A stretch of DNA of 64,000 nucleotides from Pseudohalioglobus sediminis. Lineage in GTDB: Bacteria; Pseudomonadota; Gammaproteobacteria; Pseudomonadales; Halieaceae. The translations under genes were made by a program, and so were the position numbers. Within the stretch, counting starts at the first letter, position 1. The number at the start of each line of letters is the position of its first letter. Of the stretch, positions 13,332 through 56,424 are shown piece by piece. The DNA is taken from NCBI RefSeq assembly GCF_008370495.1, contig NZ_VTUX01000001.1, positions 558,001 through 622,000 of the forward strand, given 5' to 3'. The notes under the pieces were generated by a model. It did no database searches and was not told where the DNA came from. It was given only the letters and a program-made list of their open reading frames with translations.

Positions 13332-14303
13332 TCAGCCGCGGTGGTGCGGGCGCGTAAAGTCGATGTCCGGGCCCAGCGGCACCACACCGGTGGGATTGAT
13401 GGTGCCGTGCGAGGCGTAATAGTGCGTCTTGATATGGTCGAAGTCGACGGTCTCGCTCACACCCGGCAACTGGAAGATATCCCGCACGTATCCCGGCAGG
13501 TGCGCATAATCCTCAAGCCGCTGGCGGTTGCACTTGAAGTGGCCGTGGTACACGGCGTCGAAACGGATCAGCGTGGTGAACAGGCGGATATCCGCCTCGG
13601 TGAGCTGGTCACCGACCAGGAAGCGCTGCTTCGCCAGGTGGGCATCGAGTGCGTCCAGTTCGGCAAACACTTCCGCATAGGCCTCCTCGTAGGCCGCCTG
13701 GCTGGTGGCGAAACCGGCGCGGTAGACGCCGTTATTTACGCGCGGGTAGATGCGCTCGTTCCAGCGCTCAATGTCCTCGCGCAGGGCTTGCGGATAATAG
13801 TCATCTTTATTACCGGTAATGCCATCGAAGGCGCTGTTGAGCATGCGGATGATTTCCGAGGATTCATTACTGACAATGGTATTGCGCTGCTTGTCCCAGA
13901 GCACCGGCACGGTCACCCTGCCGGTATAGTCGGGGGCCGCATCTGTGTACACCTGGTAGTGGAAGTCGCGCCCTGCCAGCGCGTCGCCGGTGCTGCCCTC
14001 ATCCCGGTTAAAGGTCCAGCCATTTGCCAGCATGATCGGACTAACCACAGATACGTCGATGGCATCTTCAAGGCCCTTGAGTGCGCGCATGATCAGCGTC
14101 CTGTGCGCCCAGGGGCAGGCCAGGGAGACATACAGGTGATAGCGCCCCGCCTCTGCGGCAAAGCCCCCCTCGCCTTCCGGCCCCGGGGCGCCGTCAGCGG
14201 TCACCCAGTTGCGAAAGCGCGCGCTCTCGCGCTTGAAAGAACCCCCGGTGGACTCGGTGTCATACCATACGTCCTGCCACTGACCGTCTACCAACATACC
14301 CAT
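13332..14303 (-). CDS. yqjG: Glutathionyl-hydroquinone reductase (YqjG/Ecm4-like)
   Basis: About 323 residues; family size is 310-330. Omega/xi-type glutathione transferase that reduces glutathionyl-hydroquinones. The catalytic Cys63 is in the LACPWAHRT motif; the N-terminal DGQWQDVWYDTESTGGSFKR and the C-terminal RFDAVYHGHFKCN block are diagnostic. Of three clustered Met codons, the one at 14303 has AAGGAG 8 bases upstream and is preferred; 14309 is the alternative. It lies downstream of a LysR gene in the same direction, as in the Escherichia coli yqjG-yhaJ region, with a LysR-type box between them. Confidence 0.92.
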   Translation of the reverse strand: MGMLVDGQWQDVWYDTESTGGSFKRESARFRNWVTADGAPGPEGEGGFAAEAGRYHLYVSLACPWAHRTLIMRALKGLEDAIDVSVVSPIMLANGWTFNRDEGSTGDALAGRDFHYQVYTDAAPDYTGRVTVPVLWDKQRNTIVSNESSEIIRMLNSAFDGITGNKDDYYPQALREDIERWNERIYPRVNNGVYRAGFATSQAAYEEAYAEVFAELDALDAHLAKQRFLVGDQLTEADIRLFTTLIRFDAVYHGHFKCNRQRLEDYAHLPGYVRDIFQLPGVSETVDFDHIKTHYYASHGTINPTGVVPLGPDIDFTRPHHRG

Positions 14304-50362: not shown

Positions 50363-50590
50363 GCGGCACAGCGACCCACTCCCATAGCCTCCAGGATGTC
50401 TGCTTCTGTTTGGGAACCTTCGGCAATCGAGCGCCAAGTCTCCGACGTGCCGGGTAGCAAGTGCCTGCCTGGTCAATCTGACGCATGTAATGGGCTACGC
50501 GGTGCTTTATGGCAAAGCGCATTGACGCGACACCATGACAACGTAATATGCTTCTTGTTGCCCTGTTTTGAATACCAGAGGTCTTTCTTC

Positions 50591-51220
50591 TTGAATGAGC
50601 TGAGCGCGCACTTCCTGGCGGTGCTGATGGGGTTCTTCGCCATCATGAACCCGATCGCCAACACGGCCATCTTTGTCGGACTGACGGCGGAGCAGCCGAA
50701 AAGCACCCAGGTTGCCATTGCCCTGAGGGCCTTATTGACATCGTTCGCCATCGTAGCAATCTTCGCACTGGCGGGAAAAACGATATTCCATCTCTTCGAT
50801 ATCACCTTGCCAGCCCTGCGCATCACGGGAGGCATCCTGCTGTTCATCATTGGTTACCAGATGTTACATGGCGGCTCGTCCACACTGCATGCGGCACCTA
50901 ATGAACCGGTCGATGTGAATGTGGCTTACTCGCCGCTGGCGGTGCCGATTCTCGCCGGCCCTGGCACGATTGCTACCGCCATGAACTATTCAGCCTCCGG
51001 TGACTGGGTAGCCATCTCCACCACCGTTGCTACCTTTGCCCTCCTGTGCGTTGTGACATTCTTCTGCTTCATTTTCGGCCAGGGCTTGATCGGCATCATA
51101 GGTAATGCGGGGCTGACCATGGTGACCCGGCTTATGGGGCTGATCATTGCAGTGATCGGCACACAGATGGTCATGGTAGGCCTGCGCACGAGTGATTTCG
51201 TTGCGGCACTCATGCAATAA
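50591..51220 (+). CDS. MarC-family inner-membrane protein
   Basis: 209 residues from a TTG codon with AGAGG 9 bases upstream; six membrane helices. GFFAIMNPIANTAIFVGLT at the start and YSPLAVPILAGPGTIATAMNY near residue 113 are the two MarC signature repeats. Function of MarC is unsettled (once linked to multidrug resistance). The longer frame to 50396 lacks a family match. It marks the left flank of the integron. Confidence 0.85.
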   Translation: MNELSAHFLAVLMGFFAIMNPIANTAIFVGLTAEQPKSTQVAIALRALLTSFAIVAIFALAGKTIFHLFDITLPALRITGGILLFIIGYQMLHGGSSTLHAAPNEPVDVNVAYSPLAVPILAGPGTIATAMNYSASGDWVAISTTVATFALLCVVTFFCFIFGQGLIGIIGNAGLTMVTRLMGLIIAVIGTQMVMVGLRTSDFVAALMQ

Positions 51221-51382
51221 TTTACCTCTCTGGCAGGCAAGTCGACACTGTGGCTTCAGACGGCATGCCAACACAGCGGCTTTCTGAACGTCACTCCCGG
51301 CACCCGAGTATCTGAGAATCCAGACCATCGGCTTCCGCCTCAGAAGAGACGTTTATCGCGAATCGCCGCCGCGTTAATGTCC

Positions 51383-51420
51383 CAGTAACCGAAGGGAACG
51401 TGTTGAGCGCCTTGTTAGAT
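51383..51420. repeat. Terminal attC site, apparently truncated
   Basis: Ends with CTTGTTAGAT (core GTTAGAT at 51414-51420) like the other attC sites, but the opposite core is only a weak GTTACTG-type match at 51383-51389, too close to allow a normal stem. Left end of the array; 51221-51382 holds nothing else recognised. Confidence 0.45.
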
Positions 51421-51426
51421 GCCTCT

Positions 51427-51816
51427 TTACAGATGAGCGATGCATTTAATTTCAATCTTTAATTCCGGTTGAACAAGTGCGCCTACCTGAACAACTGTTT
51501 GGCTAACTTCGGGCATGCCTCCGTATGCAGATTCTCTTTCGCCGTAGACGGCTTCTACGTTCTCCATCAATTCACTTATGTCTGTAACGAAAAACGTTTC
51601 ATCGACAACATTTTCAAGATCCGCCCCGAACTGGGATAAAACATGTTTCATATTTGCGTAAGCAATAGCTGTCTGTTCTGCAATGTTAGCTGGAACATTT
51701 CCGCTATCGTTTATCCCCACCTGCCCCGCCAGGTAAAGCACGTTTCCAACTTGGGTACCTTGTGCAATAAAATCTTTGAAGGGGCCATTTCGATAGGTTT
51801 TCTTCTTAATTGTCAT
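51427..51816 (-). CDS. Cassette 6: RidA/YjgF-family protein
   Basis: 129 residues, the family's usual length. GTQVGNVLYLAGQVGI (about 20-35), NMKHVLSQFGADLENVV and PELKIEIKCIAHL match RidA-like enamine/imine deaminases; the usual arginine late in the fold (Rxx-x-ARVA type) is not clear, so it may belong to a non-deaminase subfamily. ATG 51816 is favoured over 51846. It is the last cassette gene before the array end. Confidence 0.82.
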   Translation of the reverse strand: MTIKKKTYRNGPFKDFIAQGTQVGNVLYLAGQVGINDSGNVPANIAEQTAIAYANMKHVLSQFGADLENVVDETFFVTDISELMENVEAVYGERESAYGGMPEVSQTVVQVGALVQPELKIEIKCIAHL

Positions 51817-51828
51817 TGTTGAGAATTC

Positions 51829-51928
51829 CTCTAAGTTATGGGGCATCTATCGCCTTGCGCACAGGCAGCCGAACCGAAGCTTGGGCTGCCCAGCCACGAC
51901 GCGGCGATTTTGCCGTAACTTCTTAGGT
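51829..51928. repeat. attC site of cassette 5, diverged
   Basis: Imperfect palindrome with CTCTAAG at one end and ACTTCTTAGGT at the other. Compared with the other sites, the invariant G of both GTTRRRY cores reads C (CTTAGAG, CTTAGGT). It is recognisable by position and symmetry but may be inactive. Confidence 0.5.
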
Positions 51929-51934
51929 GTTTTG

Positions 51935-52324
51935 CTAACCACCAAATATCCAAGTGTGAATGGTTCTCCCGGGCATAAGCGTGAATGATCCCGCAATGAG
52001 GATACCTCCAATATAGAGTCCGATCATATGCTTCCTATGCGATGAAATGTCACCACGGCGTATTGCTGCAAGGGCGGATGCGACGGAAAACAGAACCACT
52101 ACGCTTAACAGATGAAGCAGACCAAAGTGTGAGAATAGGGTTGGCCCTACAAAAGCAGGCATAAACAAAGCAAGTATTGCTGTGAACACCATGAGGGCCA
52201 TGTAAATCTTGCCGAGCGACTTGTGTATGGGCGTCCCTTTAGTTGAAAAAAGTAAAAATGCACCAATGAATATGCAAGGGACTACCGTGAATAGGTGCAA
52301 ATAAACTAGGTGCATATAAGCCAT
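51935..52324 (-). CDS. Cassette 5: DUF2306-like membrane protein
   Basis: 129 residues with four predicted membrane helices. TKGTPIHKSLGKIYMALMVF (about 29-48) and RRGDISSHRKHMIGLYIGG (about 89-107) are typical DUF2306 segments; function unknown. Starts 6 bases inside the cassette boundary and its TAG lies next to the diverged attC. Confidence 0.75.
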   Translation of the reverse strand: MAYMHLVYLHLFTVVPCIFIGAFLLFSTKGTPIHKSLGKIYMALMVFTAILALFMPAFVGPTLFSHFGLLHLLSVVVLFSVASALAAIRRGDISSHRKHMIGLYIGGILIAGSFTLMPGRTIHTWIFGG

Positions 52325-52329
52325 GAATC

Positions 52330-52418
52330 ACCTAACGCCTCAAAAACCGGCAGCCTGCAGCGAAGCCGCTTTTAGGCTGTCCGGCGCCGAAGGCGCGTAG
52401 TTGATTGACTTGTTAGAT
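52330..52418. repeat. attC site of cassette 4
   Basis: 89 bases. Cores ACCTAAC (52330-52336, i.e. GTTAGGT on the integron strand) and GTTAGAT (52412-52418). An inner hairpin is formed by the CGGCAGCCTGCAGCG...CGCGTAGTTGATTG region. Ends match the other sites. Confidence 0.8.
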
Positions 52419-52449
52419 GGCATCTGCGCGCTACCCCAAGTTGATGTTG

Positions 52450-52914
52450 CTAGAGGACCCCCAACATTTTGAATGTTTCTTTGATTTCTTCTAAAGAACT
52501 CTGTTGTTCTTCCATCTGGAAATCTTTTGGGGCTGCAGCTGGAAACCAATCATGTAAGTCGCACGTCCAAACAGCGACATCCGGAGCTGCAAAGTTAGAA
52601 TCAAAGAAGCACCCTACAGGAATCTCGTAAAGATCCTCCTCAAAGACCGCATTGATTGATGGCGTTTCAGCTATTACGGTGCTGCCACAATTAGGACAGA
52701 AGTGGAACGTCATCGAGCTACCAGAAAGTGTACCGCGCGTATAGACTTTCTGCTCTCCAGCTATTTTTACCTGGCTCGCTTTGTAATAAGCGTTAAAGCT
52801 GGACGGCGTTCCAGTACGTCTTTGACAATCTACGCAGCCACATTGAATCTGAAACAAGTGCTCGTCGGGACAGGCGGCAGTCAATTGTCCGCACTGACAT
52901 GATGCTACTTTCAT
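52450..52914 (-). CDS. Cassette 4: GFA/CENP-V-type zinc protein
   Basis: 154 residues. Glutathione-dependent formaldehyde-activating (GFA) fold with zinc cysteines in SCQCGQL, QCGCVDCQRRTG (about 25-36) and FCPNCGS (about 72-78), and the YEIPVGCFFDSNF segment. Possibly handles glutathione or formaldehyde adducts; GFA assignments are often only structural. A chromosomal relative is at 58083-58550. Confidence 0.85.
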   Translation of the reverse strand: MKVASCQCGQLTAACPDEHLFQIQCGCVDCQRRTGTPSSFNAYYKASQVKIAGEQKVYTRGTLSGSSMTFHFCPNCGSTVIAETPSINAVFEEDLYEIPVGCFFDSNFAAPDVAVWTCDLHDWFPAAAPKDFQMEEQQSSLEEIKETFKMLGVL

Positions 52915-52936
52915 GTGTGTATCTCCGAACTATGGC

Positions 52937-52995
52937 ATTTAACGCCTACGGCAGGGGGCGCGGTACTTGCGTCCTGCTGGCCGTACTTGTTAGAG
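52937..52995. repeat. attC site of cassette 3 (59 bases)
   Basis: Cores ATTTAAC (52937-52943) and GTTAGAG (52989-52995), with TAACGCCTACGGC near one end pairing with GGCCGTACTTGTTA at the other. Exactly the classic 59-base-element length. Confidence 0.85.
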
Positions 52996-53005
52996 AGCCT
53001 TTTGC

Positions 53006-53512
53006 TCATAGCTTGTAAGTTACCTTTTCGTCCGTAACCACAATTTTTCCAGTTGAAGAAAGATGCTCAATGACTGATTTTACCTGCTGATCATTAAGTT
53101 TAAGCTGCGGTAGTGACTTTATGGTGGACGAGAGGGTCTTAACTTTACGTGGCCTAGCATTTCCTCTGGATTTGAGGTTCTTCACAATGGCGTCCAGGGT
53201 CTCATTGGACAAGTTACTTATTTTGGTGGAAGGGGCTTTCGTCTTTGGCTTGGCTCCACCAACTCCGTTCGGACACTTAAAATTTCCCTTCTGGTTCAAT
53301 ACAACCCTAATTTTCTCCTTCAGAGACATGCTGCCAAGCAAAGCATTTACTGCCTTGCAGCACGCAACACAATTATCATCGCTATTACTGCCGGCCCTGG
53401 AGGACGGCACTAGATGCTCGACGCTTGCCTCTGCCTTCGGCAACTTTTCATTGCAAAAGAAACACAGGCCGCCTTGTGCAAACATTAGTCGATCTAGGGG
53501 CTTAGTTGGCAT
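53006..53512 (-). CDS. Cassette 3: HNH endonuclease with C-terminal helical domain
   Basis: 168 residues. N-terminal HNH domain with zinc cysteines C17-x-x-C20 (CFFC) and C48-x-x-C51 (CVAC), catalytic EHLVPSS (His33) and a following Asn. A Lys/Pro-rich linker (about 85-100) leads to LSSTIKSLPQLKLNDQQV and VIEHLSSTGKIVV, which look like a winged-helix nucleic-acid-binding domain. Probably a DNA or RNA nuclease; target unknown. The nuclease domain is complete. Confidence 0.75.
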   Translation of the reverse strand: MPTKPLDRLMFAQGGLCFFCNEKLPKAEASVEHLVPSSRAGSNSDDNCVACCKAVNALLGSMSLKEKIRVVLNQKGNFKCPNGVGGAKPKTKAPSTKISNLSNETLDAIVKNLKSRGNARPRKVKTLSSTIKSLPQLKLNDQQVKSVIEHLSSTGKIVVTDEKVTYKL

Positions 53513-53516
53513 GGCT

Positions 53517-53604
53517 CTCTAACGCCTGCCGCAGTGGCGCGGAAACCGCGCTGCGGTTTTTGCGTCCGGCCCCGCCAGGGTCGCACTGGCGCTACTTGTT
53601 AATG
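53517..53604. repeat. attC site of cassette 2
   Basis: 88 bases. Cores CTCTAAC (53517-53523) and GTTAATG (53598-53604). Strong inner stem from GCCGCAGTGGCGCGG and its partner CACTGGCGC; loop CGCTGCGGTTTTTGCG. Confidence 0.82.
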
Positions 53605-53757
53605 GGACGCGATGGTCCAATAGACACCCAGGGTACGGACAGATACTGGACAATAATGATTGGTGACGTTTCCGCGGGAACGTTTTTTGGTTATAAGCAA
53701 GGAAAGCTAAGCGCAATAAGAAACATGTACCTTCCTGGTCTGGTGAAATTTTTCTGA
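53602..53757 (+). CDS. Cassette 2: small antisense ORF, doubtful
   Basis: A 51-residue plus-strand frame (MGRDGPIDTQGTDRYW at its start, ending VKFF), opposite to every other cassette gene. The ATG is in the attC core and no ribosome binding site is visible. The minus frame (53519-53797, 92 codons) runs through the attC and ends in its core, so neither is convincing. Cassette 2 may be a promoter or RNA cassette, or carry a decayed gene. Confidence 0.25.
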   Translation: MGRDGPIDTQGTDRYWTIMIGDVSAGTFFGYKQGKLSAIRNMYLPGLVKFF

Positions 53758-53841
53758 AGCGCTTTTGCACGAGAGAACGTCCTTTTCCCTGCATCATTTT
53801 CTCTAGTTTATCTCACGATCCTGCTGGCTGCACAAGCGTAC

Positions 53842-53916
53842 CGTTAACGCTTCAAGCTGAGGCGTGCGTTAGCGCGTCCCGGCGCGAAGCGCCCTTGCAG
53901 CCTTGACTTGTTAAAG
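53842..53916. repeat. attC site of cassette 1
   Basis: 75 bases. Cores CGTTAAC (53842-53848) and GTTAAAG (53910-53916), with GCTTCAAGCTGAGGCG and CGCCCTTGCAGCC arms around a GCGCGTCCCGGCGCG centre. Confidence 0.8.
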
Positions 53917-53922
53917 GGAAAG

Positions 53923-54321
53923 CTAAACATTTAGGTAGTATCGAATCGAATAGACATAAACAGCAGATAACAACATCGATACCAGGAACAGCCCCATTTT
54001 TATCCAAGCGTCTGGCTTTGCATTCACCCCGAATAGCTTTTCTTCGGTGAATCTGTCCAGTTTGCTTAGAACGTAGCCCGAAAAAAATAGCGTTATTGCC
54101 TGGCCAAGACCTTTAAAAACCATCGCCTCATCAGTATTGAATGGTGCTACTAAAGCACCCAGTACCCACCCCACTACTATACCGAGCAAAATAACAAGGT
54201 AATTGCTTGCTCGATCTGAGTTAGTTTCAGTGCTTGATCTTACAATCCATCTCAACATGACCAGTATCACAATGGCAACGATAGTGCTGCTAACGACTGT
54301 CGGTAAGTGTTCGGTGCTCAT
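53923..54321 (-). CDS. Cassette 1: hypothetical membrane protein
   Basis: 132 residues with about four membrane helices (about 8-24, 42-60, 68-86, 108-126) and a charged loop DRFTEEKLFGVNAKPDAW between the last two. No family recognised. It is the first cassette after attI and so nearest the likely cassette promoter. Confidence 0.65.
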   Translation of the reverse strand: MSTEHLPTVVSSTIVAIVILVMLRWIVRSSTETNSDRASNYLVILLGIVVGWVLGALVAPFNTDEAMVFKGLGQAITLFFSGYVLSKLDRFTEEKLFGVNAKPDAWIKMGLFLVSMLLSAVYVYSIRYYLNV

Positions 54322-54328
54322 TCTTTCC

Positions 54329-54335
54329 CTTTAAC
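54329..54335 (-). other. attI/cassette 1 recombination core
   Basis: CTTTAAC (GTTAAAG on the integron strand) marks where cassette 1 meets attI. attI itself should lie within 54330-54620, between this core and the LexA box; this stretch has no gene. Confidence 0.6.
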
Positions 54336-54340
54336 AGCTA

Positions 54341-54368
54341 AGTATATAGACAGGTCTAAAAATGACAT
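54341..54368 (-). promoter_or_regulatory. Possible cassette promoter (Pc)
   Basis: On the minus strand ATGTCA (54363-54368), 16 bases, then TATACT (54341-54346), about 20 bases before cassette 1. Four and five of six positions match the sigma-70 boxes. Position suits Pc, but it is only a sequence match. Confidence 0.35.
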
Positions 54369-54621
54369 GGGCCCAGTATGTAGAAGAATGAGGGGGAAAC
54401 ATTGGCTAAAAGTCCCTTTCTATCAATGAGTTAAAAAACGTTACCCCAAAAGAGCGGAAAACAATAGCCATATTTTCGGTGCCTGAGCCATCATAATTGA
54501 CCGTAAAGCACGTAGCACGCCTCGAATAAATCATTGTTAATCAACAACATATGGCTCTATGGGCATTACTCTTGGCCGGGGTCCCCTGAAAAACGGCTTG
54601 CAATATCCATACATGGATTTA

Positions 54622-54637
54622 CTGTATGTATATACAG
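54622..54637. promoter_or_regulatory. LexA (SOS) box of the integron integrase
   Basis: CTGTATGTATATACAG is a perfect CTGT-N8-ACAG site, extended TACTGTATGTATATACAGTC, 21 bases before the intI ATG. The ATG inside it is not the start. Confidence 0.88.
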
Positions 54638-54658
54638 TCTAGATACAAGGTAGGCTTC

Positions 54659-55630
54659 ATGGATGATATTCGCCCCGCTACCCCTCAACGGTCTCAGCGC
54701 TTCGTTCACCAGATACAGCAAGATCTTCGCGATAAAGGATATGCATTTCAGACAGAGAAAACATATCTACACTGGATCAAGCGCTACATTATCTTCCACA
54801 ACAAACGTCATCCTGCACAGATGGGAGCGGATGACATAAATGTATTTCTCAGCCATCTTGGGAGCCAACGGAATTGCTCGCCTGCCACCCAGCGAATAGC
54901 ACTTAATGCGCTTATCTACCTGTATCGGAAATTCCTGAAGGTTGACCTTGAACCTTTGGCTTTTGAAAAAGCACGTCAACGTCGGCGCCTGCCAGTAGTA
55001 CTCAGCCATGGTGAAGTAAACGGTATTCTGACTTGTCTGGATGGCAAATACCATTTGATGGTGTCATTGCTCTACGGTGCAGGCCTTCGGCAGAGCGAAC
55101 TACTGAATCTGCGAATCAAAGACATTGACTTCGAGCTGAATACACTCACAGTTCGTTCCGGCAAAGGTGATAAAGATCGAACAACACTGCTACCCACAAC
55201 CCTGCTGGTGCCTCTTCAGCGCCAGATCGCGGAGGTACAGAAGCTACACACACGAGACATTGAAGACGGATTTGGCGAGGTCTACCTACCCAATGCGCTT
55301 GCCCAAAAAAATCCCCGAGCCGCCTTCGAGCTTGGCTGGCAGTTTTTGTTCCCTTCTACTCGTATCGGAGCCTGTCCTCGAACAGGTGTCATGCGTCGAC
55401 ACCATCTACACCACACAGCGCTACGTAAACATGTCATGAAAGCACGCCTAAAAGCGGGAATAACCAAACCCGTGAAATGTCATACCTTTCGTCACAGCTT
55501 CGCCACACGACTGCTCCAGAAAGTCTACGACCTGCGTACCATGCAGAAGTTACTCGGCCACAATGATGTAAAAACGACGGAAATCTATACCCATGTTTTG
55601 GGGCAGCGTGCCAACAGCTCAGAACAGTGA
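54659..55630 (+). CDS. intI: Integron integrase (IntI-type tyrosine recombinase)
   Basis: 323 residues, the usual size of IntI proteins. Catalytic residues are complete: Arg144 in GAGLRQSELLNLR, Lys169 in SGKGDKD, His275 and Arg278 in CHTFRHSFATRLL, His301 in LLGHNDVKTTEIYTHV and Tyr310. The IntI-specific insert between patches II and III is present (GVMRRHHLHHTALRKHVMKA, 243-262). It recombines attC with attI. ATG 54659 has AAGG 8 bases upstream. Divergent from the cassettes. Confidence 0.93.
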   Translation: MDDIRPATPQRSQRFVHQIQQDLRDKGYAFQTEKTYLHWIKRYIIFHNKRHPAQMGADDINVFLSHLGSQRNCSPATQRIALNALIYLYRKFLKVDLEPLAFEKARQRRRLPVVLSHGEVNGILTCLDGKYHLMVSLLYGAGLRQSELLNLRIKDIDFELNTLTVRSGKGDKDRTTLLPTTLLVPLQRQIAEVQKLHTRDIEDGFGEVYLPNALAQKNPRAAFELGWQFLFPSTRIGACPRTGVMRRHHLHHTALRKHVMKARLKAGITKPVKCHTFRHSFATRLLQKVYDLRTMQKLLGHNDVKTTEIYTHVLGQRANSSEQ

Positions 55631-55746: not shown

Positions 55747-56424
55747 ATGCACGTGCACATCACTCACCTGAAACTCTATCACTTCCCCATGTCGCGCAGT
55801 GCGCGTGTGAAGTGGCTACTGCACGAACTGGTGGACGACGCGTTCGAGTTGGAAACGATGCGCCTGTACGAGGGCCAGCAATACCAGCCAGACTTTCTCA
55901 AACGCAATCCCAATCACGCGGTACCCGTGCTGGAGATCACACACTCCGACGGCAGCGTATTCACCATGATTGAAAGCGGCGCCATCGTGGCGCTGCTGGC
56001 GGATAGCTACCCAGAGCGACGCCTGGCCCCGCCCCCTGCAACCTACTCCGCCGAGCGCGCGGACTACCTGCAAATGCTGCACTTCGGAGCGTCCTGGTTC
56101 GACATGATGCTCTGGCAGATCAGGATGAATCGCGACCTCCTGCCGCAGGAGGCGCGCGATGAGGGCACAATCGACCGATACATGGAGAAAATAGCCAAGG
56201 AAGTGGAGCCCCAACTCGAGGCCCGCCTGAATGGCGGCGGCTACATCGCCGGGGAAGATTTCAGTGCAGCGGACTGTGTTATGGGCCACAACGTCATCTG
56301 GGCCAGGCTCTACGGGCTGTGCGGCGGTGACAGCTTCTCTCGCTACCTGGAAACTCTCACCGCCAGGCCCGGTTTCAAGGCGGCCTTTGCCGACAGTGAC
56401 CGCTTCAAGTTGTCCCCACGCTGA
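55747..56424 (+). CDS. Glutathione S-transferase
   Basis: 225 residues (or 223 from GTG 55753, which has a better-spaced AAGGGG). N-terminal thioredoxin fold with HLKLYHFPMSRSARVKWLLHE and the cis-Pro segment NHAVPVLEI, and a helical domain with YIAGEDFSAADCVMGHNVIW. Conjugates or reduces electrophiles with glutathione. 116 bases after intI. No attC follows it. Confidence 0.85.
   Translation: MHVHITHLKLYHFPMSRSARVKWLLHELVDDAFELETMRLYEGQQYQPDFLKRNPNHAVPVLEITHSDGSVFTMIESGAIVALLADSYPERRLAPPPATYSAERADYLQMLHFGASWFDMMLWQIRMNRDLLPQEARDEGTIDRYMEKIAKEVEPQLEARLNGGGYIAGEDFSAADCVMGHNVIWARLYGLCGGDSFSRYLETLTARPGFKAAFADSDRFKLSPR

Follow-up and report, generated by a model that had tools for sequence, protein, structure and literature searches.

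What is the element at positions 51,383 to 55,630 of a 64,000-nucleotide stretch of the Pseudohalioglobus sediminis genome (the whole stretch is called the window hereafter), and is the place where it lies the place where such elements normally reside? A preliminary description, made from the letters alone, had read it as a small chromosomal integron with six cassettes, in a host group that is no textbook carrier of integrons. We consider it very likely that the element is a chromosomal integron of an integrase (IntI) lineage of the Halieaceae, that this lineage normally resides in the region of the SOS mutasome genes, and that the window copy has been displaced from there. Genomes, contigs and loci are cited below by our labels (G, C and L, respectively), with G000 denoting the genome of the window.

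The integrase gene, intI, occupies 54626-55630 on the forward strand as an open reading frame (ORF) of 334 residues. In an NCBIfam profile search its product matches TIGR02249 (integrase_gron) with 396 bits against a cut-off of 265, and the same protein scores 133 bits against the XerD profile and 123 bits against that of XerC. It contains the Pfam domains Phage_int_SAM_4 and Phage_integrase, and an alignment of 305 residues with V. cholerae IntI4 (PDB 2a3v) shows the catalytic stretches to be conserved, in agreement with the catalytic residues first noticed by eye. In the tree described below it groups with IntI proteins; the profile scores and the tree together rule out an identity as XerC or XerD, and the presence of intI rules out a CALIN (an attC array without an integrase). 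Elsewhere in the window genome there is no second IntI-type match; the other matches are weak and lie at two places, in Xer-like genes.

A scan of the window against Rfam at gathering thresholds returned zero matches, and the attC sites were therefore tested with a purpose-built covariance model, constructed from 49 candidates from other Halieaceae loci with the window held out. These candidates were gathered by a motif-and-stem scan and then aligned; because the scan demands stem pairing, the pair counts lean towards structure, a bias from which the held-out search of the window is free. In the alignment of the 49 candidates, 83% of cells are paired compared with 69% in shuffles, two-sided changes number 159 compared with 63, and covariation reaches 0.352 compared with 0.140, with none of 500 shuffles as high. 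Applied to the 64 kb window with filters off, the model finds five sites, all within the array and all on the forward strand (the bottom strand of the array): attC1 (53841-53917, 83.5 bits), attC4 (52329-52419, 48.7 bits), attC3 (52936-52996, 46.5 bits), attC2 (53516-53605, 35.9 bits) and attC5 (51844-51929, 27.1 bits), followed by a next match of 12.0 bits. Folding of the bottom strands, proposed as a check in the preliminary description, gave for attC1, attC3 and attC4, each folded singly, the two-box hairpin (R and L boxes) with an extrahelical base, but no such hairpin for attC2, attC5 or the half site at the end of the array in the stretches used. The G+C content of the array is 0.473, compared with 0.608 in the rest of the window, and falls below all of the 540 equal-size windows outside it (0.555-0.657), as the preliminary description had proposed.

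These results establish the small chromosomal integron, with its IntI, its five attC sites within the array and its cassettes divergent from intI, and they correct some details of the first reading. Five attC sites stand, but the sixth unit ends in a half attC missed by the model; the conserved ends hold for four of the five sites found by the model, which have intact cores, but not for attC5, in which both core triplets are mutated; and the cassettes do share one orientation, away from intI, but cassette 2 has no recognisable gene. Neither of the outcomes named beforehand as refutations came about, since attC1, attC3 and attC4 give the expected hairpin and the integrase falls among IntI proteins. 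The idea that a Xer-type recombinase merely happens to lie beside chance palindromes conflicts with the profile scores of IntI, with its position in the tree and with the result of the held-out attC model, which together refute it; we found no point in its favour and give it practically no probability.

Is the host an exceptional carrier, as had been supposed? It is not: the TIGR02249 cut-off is exceeded in 33 of 140 Halieaceae genomes and in 106 of 244 genomes sampled from the order, and the Halieaceae are regular integron carriers. Identities to the window IntI are 73% in Mangrovimicrobium sediminis, 70% in a Halioglobus metagenome-assembled genome, 66% in an uncultured Halieaceae metagenome-assembled genome and 62% in Chromatocurvus halotolerans. 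The suspicion of a lineage of its own fared better. In a tree of 70 IntI rows, reconstructed under the posterior mean site frequency (PMSF) model, 29 of the 32 Halieaceae rows form one clade (support 98/89), with the window IntI inside it and within a set of eight rows (99/93). The class 1, class 2 and V. cholerae IntI4 integrases fall outside this clade, as do three Halieaceae sequences, namely those of G017 (which is the class 1 IntI1), G055 and G018 (near IntI2 and a Shewanella plasmid IntI). We found no literature report on these Halieaceae integrons.

Two carriers in the family show features of their own. G017 possesses a class 1 integron (L064, G017:C9:58000-77999), with an IntI around position 13700 identical to IntI1 over 338 residues, and the sequence around it matches plasmid segments annotated with sul1 and qacE-delta1. 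The single-contig genome G012 has two intI loci on C1 (L059 and L060); one integrase frame contains two stop codons and has 15 strict attC candidates beside it.

An all-against-all comparison of the 3' flanks revealed where these integrons usually reside. A conserved gene of about 1030 residues follows intI, and its product is DnaE2, an error-prone DNA polymerase (NF004225, 1403 bits, cut-off 939). On the same strand as intI, dnaE2 stands behind it in 23 of the 33 Halieaceae genomes with intI (G055, G015, G014, G030, G020, G051, G019, G132, G138, G119, G127, G011, G047, G041, G121, G026, G128, G113, G029, G118, G122, where it lies 445 nucleotides behind, G114 and G042). Two further genomes retain traces: G130 has the first dnaE2 codons directly behind intI, clearly above chance, and G115 a weak vestige. 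In 29 order-level loci (L106-L134, flanks of 1.3-1.5 kb), and also in L009 and L010, no dnaE2 appears behind intI. Among 63 genomes outside the family with both genes, compared by eye, G281 and G303 have intI and dnaE2 at a distance of about 3 kb, and imuA and imuB occupy the space between them. Both belong to one genus of family f20, another family of the order, in which seven genomes have both genes; here intI lies just upstream of imuA-imuB-dnaE2 (L180, G303:C6; L181, G281:C11), with separate LexA boxes at intI and imuA.

The second feature of this address is its regulation. In the window, the sequence CTGTATGTATATACAG at 54622-54637, on the forward strand in front of intI, matches the LexA pattern CTG-N10-CAG, and an SOS-type LexA box is thus present at the window intI promoter as a predicted site. 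Because this box overlaps the first ATG of the reading frame, translation of the window IntI probably starts at the ATG at 54659. A box at the intI position, with at least 6 of the 10 central positions A or T, occurs in 22 of 31 Halieaceae loci (the window and L012-L041, two of them without upstream sequence). LexA regulation is described as prevalent among integrons of marine species in PMC3108266.

Among the linked genomes, a LexA box precedes only intI in 14, only dnaE2 in six, and both genes in two (G113 and G122); G042 is a partial IntI match, and its lack of a box before intI is unsure. In the 14 genomes of the first class, the distance from the intI stop to the extrapolated dnaE2 start is at most 24 nucleotides. 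Chromatocurvus halotolerans DSM 23344 exemplifies this class, with a box before intI only and a gap of 3 nucleotides, and Mangrovimicrobium sediminis SAOS 164 has boxes before both genes and a gap of 57 nucleotides. A box is rarely found at both positions in one genome (Fisher p 0.0004, on 22 rows that are not independent and with relatedness not corrected); the test covers 22 of 24 rows and omits G031, in which the box was sought in the wrong place and is present, and G051, which has no upstream sequence. With a single LexA box found, before intI, and no more than 24 nucleotides between the genes, a common SOS operon of intI and dnaE2 is probable in these 14 genomes. By analogy with established integron biology, LexA would repress intI until DNA damage occurs, and IntI would then recombine folded attC bottom strands with attI or with other attC sites; in the 14 genomes, intI and dnaE2 would be co-transcribed from the LexA-controlled promoter before intI.

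The address extends further upstream. We sought imuB there in 14 genomes, and eight of them carry it on the strand of dnaE2, at a distance of 6.5 (G028), 9.0 (G013), 12.4 (G025), 13.0 (G000), 15.9 (G031), 19.5 (G027), 28.5 (G020) or 35.6 kb (G114). The interval between the two genes holds an intact intI in G020 and G114, a frameshifted one in G031, a remnant in G027 and a scar in G000. In G055 and G124 imuB was not found within 32 kb and 24 kb upstream, respectively, and in G026, G138 and G047 the contig ends before imuB is reached. The genome G035 has a contiguous imuA-imuB-dnaE2, with attC sites lacking an adjacent intI directly upstream of imuA (L097 209-7999, G035:C26). Six of the seven genomes scanned have a LexA box where imuB begins, the exception being G114, where imuA adjoins imuB. 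Between imuB and intI or dnaE2, the cassette strand holds 111 of 138 ORFs (seven of the eight genomes, G027 being left out), and the gaps of G020, G114 and G031 in this count contain recognisable arrays; in the stretches before imuA (G000, G031, G013 and G114), 25 of 27 ORFs lie on the opposite strand. Judged by gene order, then, the usual address in the Halieaceae is one at which intI points into dnaE2, imuB, where located, lies further upstream on the same strand, and the array lies between them. An integron may have caused each of the splits between imuB and dnaE2. We found no report of an adjacency of intI with dnaE2 or imuB in a literature search that covered few subscription papers, and a prior description may exist.

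What does this address mean? One answer is that the Halieaceae integron is built into the SOS mutasome as one locus, in the order imuA, imuB, array, attI, intI and dnaE2. One LexA-repressed promoter would yield one message for IntI and the polymerase, so that damage would trigger both gene capture and mutagenesis; the link would have been selected through integrase swaps and would have arisen again near imuA in another family. We give this proposal an even chance. The alternative is that the address is a neutral ancestral insertion site, with intI and dnaE2 neighbours by inheritance and without a shared purpose, a view we regard as quite possible though short of an even chance. A single ancestral insertion inherited through the family would explain much of the pattern, the LexA box positions vary, ten of 33 members are unlinked to dnaE2, and the integrons of Xanthomonas are reported in PMC12444791 to have ilvD as their constant neighbour. 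The same view fits less well with genes that nearly abut, and with 14 genomes in which dnaE2 would depend on the LexA box on the intI side. Moreover, an IntI of a second lineage (G055) is found at this very spot, intI lies just upstream of imuA-imuB-dnaE2 in two of the seven f20 genomes with both genes, and the attC sites of G035 lie directly upstream of imuA.

Several observations weigh against an integron anchored in the mutasome, and against tracing the window copy to it. The flank behind intI (1.5 to 9.9 kb) lacks dnaE2 in ten of the 33 genomes (G017, G115, G130, G135, G012, G126, G039, G038, G018 and the window's G000). Six genomes have a box shortly before dnaE2 (gaps of 49-73 nucleotides) and none before intI, and the single-operon state is hence not universal. 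No intI was detected in the gap between imuB and dnaE2 in G013, G025 and G028, and it is intact in only two of the eight genomes. In four ordinary stretches of the window, each 12.8 kb long, one strand already carries a fraction of 0.58-0.83 of the ORFs, and the strand bias of these gaps is therefore weak evidence when taken alone. Behind the window intI there is no dnaE2 within 8.4 kb, and a vestige tested against six linked genomes is not significant; therefore the descent of this intI from a dnaE2-linked copy is read from the tree alone, in which the grouping of the window with G128 and G113 has poor support (87/4). Finally, the distances among IntI proteins show a weak correlation with those among DnaE2 proteins across 19 of the 23 linked genomes (G055, G118, G122 and G042 being left out; r 0.27, with 40 of 5000 permutations as high), and the correlation is clear only in a subset of 14 rows (r 0.62, 0 of 5000 permutations) from which G026, G029, G030, G119 and G113 are removed, and which differs from the 14 genomes with a box before intI only in that it holds G051 and lacks G118. 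Because the distances correlate in this subset and weakly overall, the integrase seems to have been exchanged at some loci while the address stayed the same.

If the mutasome region is the usual address, what stands there in the window genome? Its dnaE2 lies at C20:88629, separate from the window integron on contig C11, and is 89% identical to that of G026. It has its own LexA box and is preceded by the last codons of an intI, a scar whose alignment score of 48 compares with a maximum of 36 in 2000 shuffles. The interval between imuB and dnaE2 is 13 kb long; of its 18 ORFs, 16 are on the cassette strand, and no attC rises above noise in it (80000-96000 with filters off, 60001-80000 with default filters). 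This interval is likely a fossil integron at its home address. By our reading of the sequence of L171 and L189 (G000:C20:75672-88500), genes of the GFA, glyoxalase-like and acetyltransferase-like kinds lie there on the cassette strand. Among the genus mates, intI is intact in G026, G029 and G030, frameshifted in G031, reduced to a remnant in G027 and not detected in G025 and G028; the genus of the window thus displays the stages of intI loss, from intact through frameshifted, remnant and scar to none.

The window copy itself stands between two neighbours: a glutathione S-transferase gene (55747-56424, forward strand) behind intI, where 23 of the 33 family genomes carry dnaE2, and a gene for a MarC-family membrane protein (50396-51220, forward strand) past the end of the array. 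A stable inherited address for this copy finds no support among the seven genus mates, none of which has a MarC above 32% identity; the best match to the glutathione S-transferase among them, in G031, is 56% identical and lies at a different place. Among the rows compared, the nearest relatives of the window IntI are those of G127 and G128, from another genus, and the nearest relative of the DnaE2 of this genome is that of G026, from its own genus. Because the two proteins point to other genera and to the own genus, respectively, the window integron is probably a displaced member acquired from another Halieaceae lineage; the window genome would have lost intI from the dnaE2 address, leaving the scar on C20, and would carry its present integron elsewhere, on C11. 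A move of the integron from the C20 locus within the same genome would account for a C20 locus that retains only the 3' end of intI and a series of cassette-strand genes, and for a window IntI that has lost the conserved tail. We nevertheless think such a move rather unlikely, given the differing affinities of IntI and DnaE2 and given that the genus mates G026, G029 and G030 carry other IntI sub-clades at dnaE2.

Is the displaced copy still active? The window IntI ends in QRANSSEQ, without the S-P motif, and an S-P tail, mostly G-V-x-S-P, is present in all 34 other IntI rows compared. Its TIGR02249 alignment stops at profile position 306 of 315, and that of the other full-length IntI proteins of the family reaches 313-315 in nearly all cases. 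In attC5 the core triplets have changed from AAC to ATC and from GTT to CTT, which breaks the core pairs, although the pairing of the L box is retained. Given the loss of both cores in attC5, a terminal attC that is only a half site and the altered IntI tail, the array is probably slow, or frozen in part. That IntI is already inactive and the array a relic is possible but doubtful: the altered tail with its truncated profile match, the mutated attC5 cores and the half site speak for it, but the catalytic stretches and the reading frame of IntI are intact, the LexA box is kept in front of intI, and attC1, attC3 and attC4 fold well. A slowing array remains the reading that we favour. The core mutations of attC5 would lock the last two units of the array, encoding a DUF2306 and a RidA-like protein, together.

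The array begins at an attI-like core, GTTAAAG (54329-54335, reverse strand), the putative insertion point of the first cassette, and the stretch from 54327 or 54332 to 54362 matches the DNA immediately upstream of intI in G114 and G121. All units lie on the reverse strand. Cassette 1 (53848-54334, with boundaries from the core sites) encodes a membrane-like protein of 132 residues (ORF 53923-54321) of no known family, with no match above cut-off in Pfam or NCBIfam and none in PADLOC. Cassette 2 (53523-53847) has only an ORF of 92 residues that runs through attC2 and finds nothing in Pfam, NCBIfam or PADLOC. Cassette 3 (52943-53522) encodes an HNH endonuclease (ORF 53006-53512; PF14279, 30.5 bits, cut-off 27.5), cassette 4 (52336-52942) a GFA-family protein (ORF 52450-52914; PF04828, 75.4 bits) and cassette 5 (51851-52335) the DUF2306 membrane protein (ORF 51935-52324; PF10067, 53.4 bits). 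Unit 6 (51370-51850) encodes the RidA-like protein (ORF 51427-51846; PF01042, 78.2 bits) and ends in the half attC at 51370-51426, which consists of R'' only. We considered a role of the cassettes in defence and set it aside, the PADLOC matches being weak only (HNH at best 24 bits, RidA 36 bits).

Pieces related to this array occur elsewhere. A copy of the RidA unit, 85% identical, is found in another genus (L094 4524-4991, G017:C1:244523-244990), with no attC detected beside it by the motif scan or the attC model. The window genome also has a solitary attC with an ORF of 123 residues behind an amidohydrolase gene (L095 6300-6376, which is C11:156299-156375; 39.1 bits), and amidohydrolase homologues in G020 and G017 likewise adjoin an attC or an orphan cassette gene. 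We do not claim an insertion of a cassette at a non-att site here: the G020 homologue also adjoins an attC, and the comparison loci are only 44-54% identical and none of them is an empty site.

The SOS control of integrons and that of imuA-imuB-dnaE2 are both established, according to PMC3323433 and PMC9578287. It is customary to view integrons under SOS control and SOS mutagenesis as separate arms of stress-driven change. With the two arms physically, and probably transcriptionally, joined, a coordination of gene capture with point mutation becomes testable.

How, then, does the Halieaceae integron compare with known systems? Class 1 and class 2 mobile integrons have homologous integrases, at 45-50% identity to the window IntI, but these occupy separate branches of the tree, and the window element lies inside a contig of 926,694 bases (C11) without mobile-element proteins among the three flank proteins scanned (MarC, the glutathione S-transferase and a methyltransferase). 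The sedentary chromosomal integrons of V. cholerae, Xanthomonas and other Gammaproteobacteria are closer in kind, sharing IntI, an attI-like core, attC sites, divergent cassettes, a LexA box and a chromosomal location; in contrast to them, the window array is small, its IntI clade is specific to the family, and 23 of 33 relatives adjoin dnaE2 instead of ilvD or other genes, with the window copy off that address. The SOS mutagenesis cassette imuA-imuB-dnaE2 is represented by the same three genes, with LexA boxes, on C20 and in the relatives, but here imuB and dnaE2 are split by 6.5-35.6 kb in eight genomes, and intI, where present, precedes dnaE2. In Vibrio, the presence of imuA-imuB-dnaE2 correlates with which chromosome bears the superintegron, as reported in the part of PMC3323433 open to us; what is reported there is a location on the same chromosome, whereas in the Halieaceae the two systems are directly adjacent.

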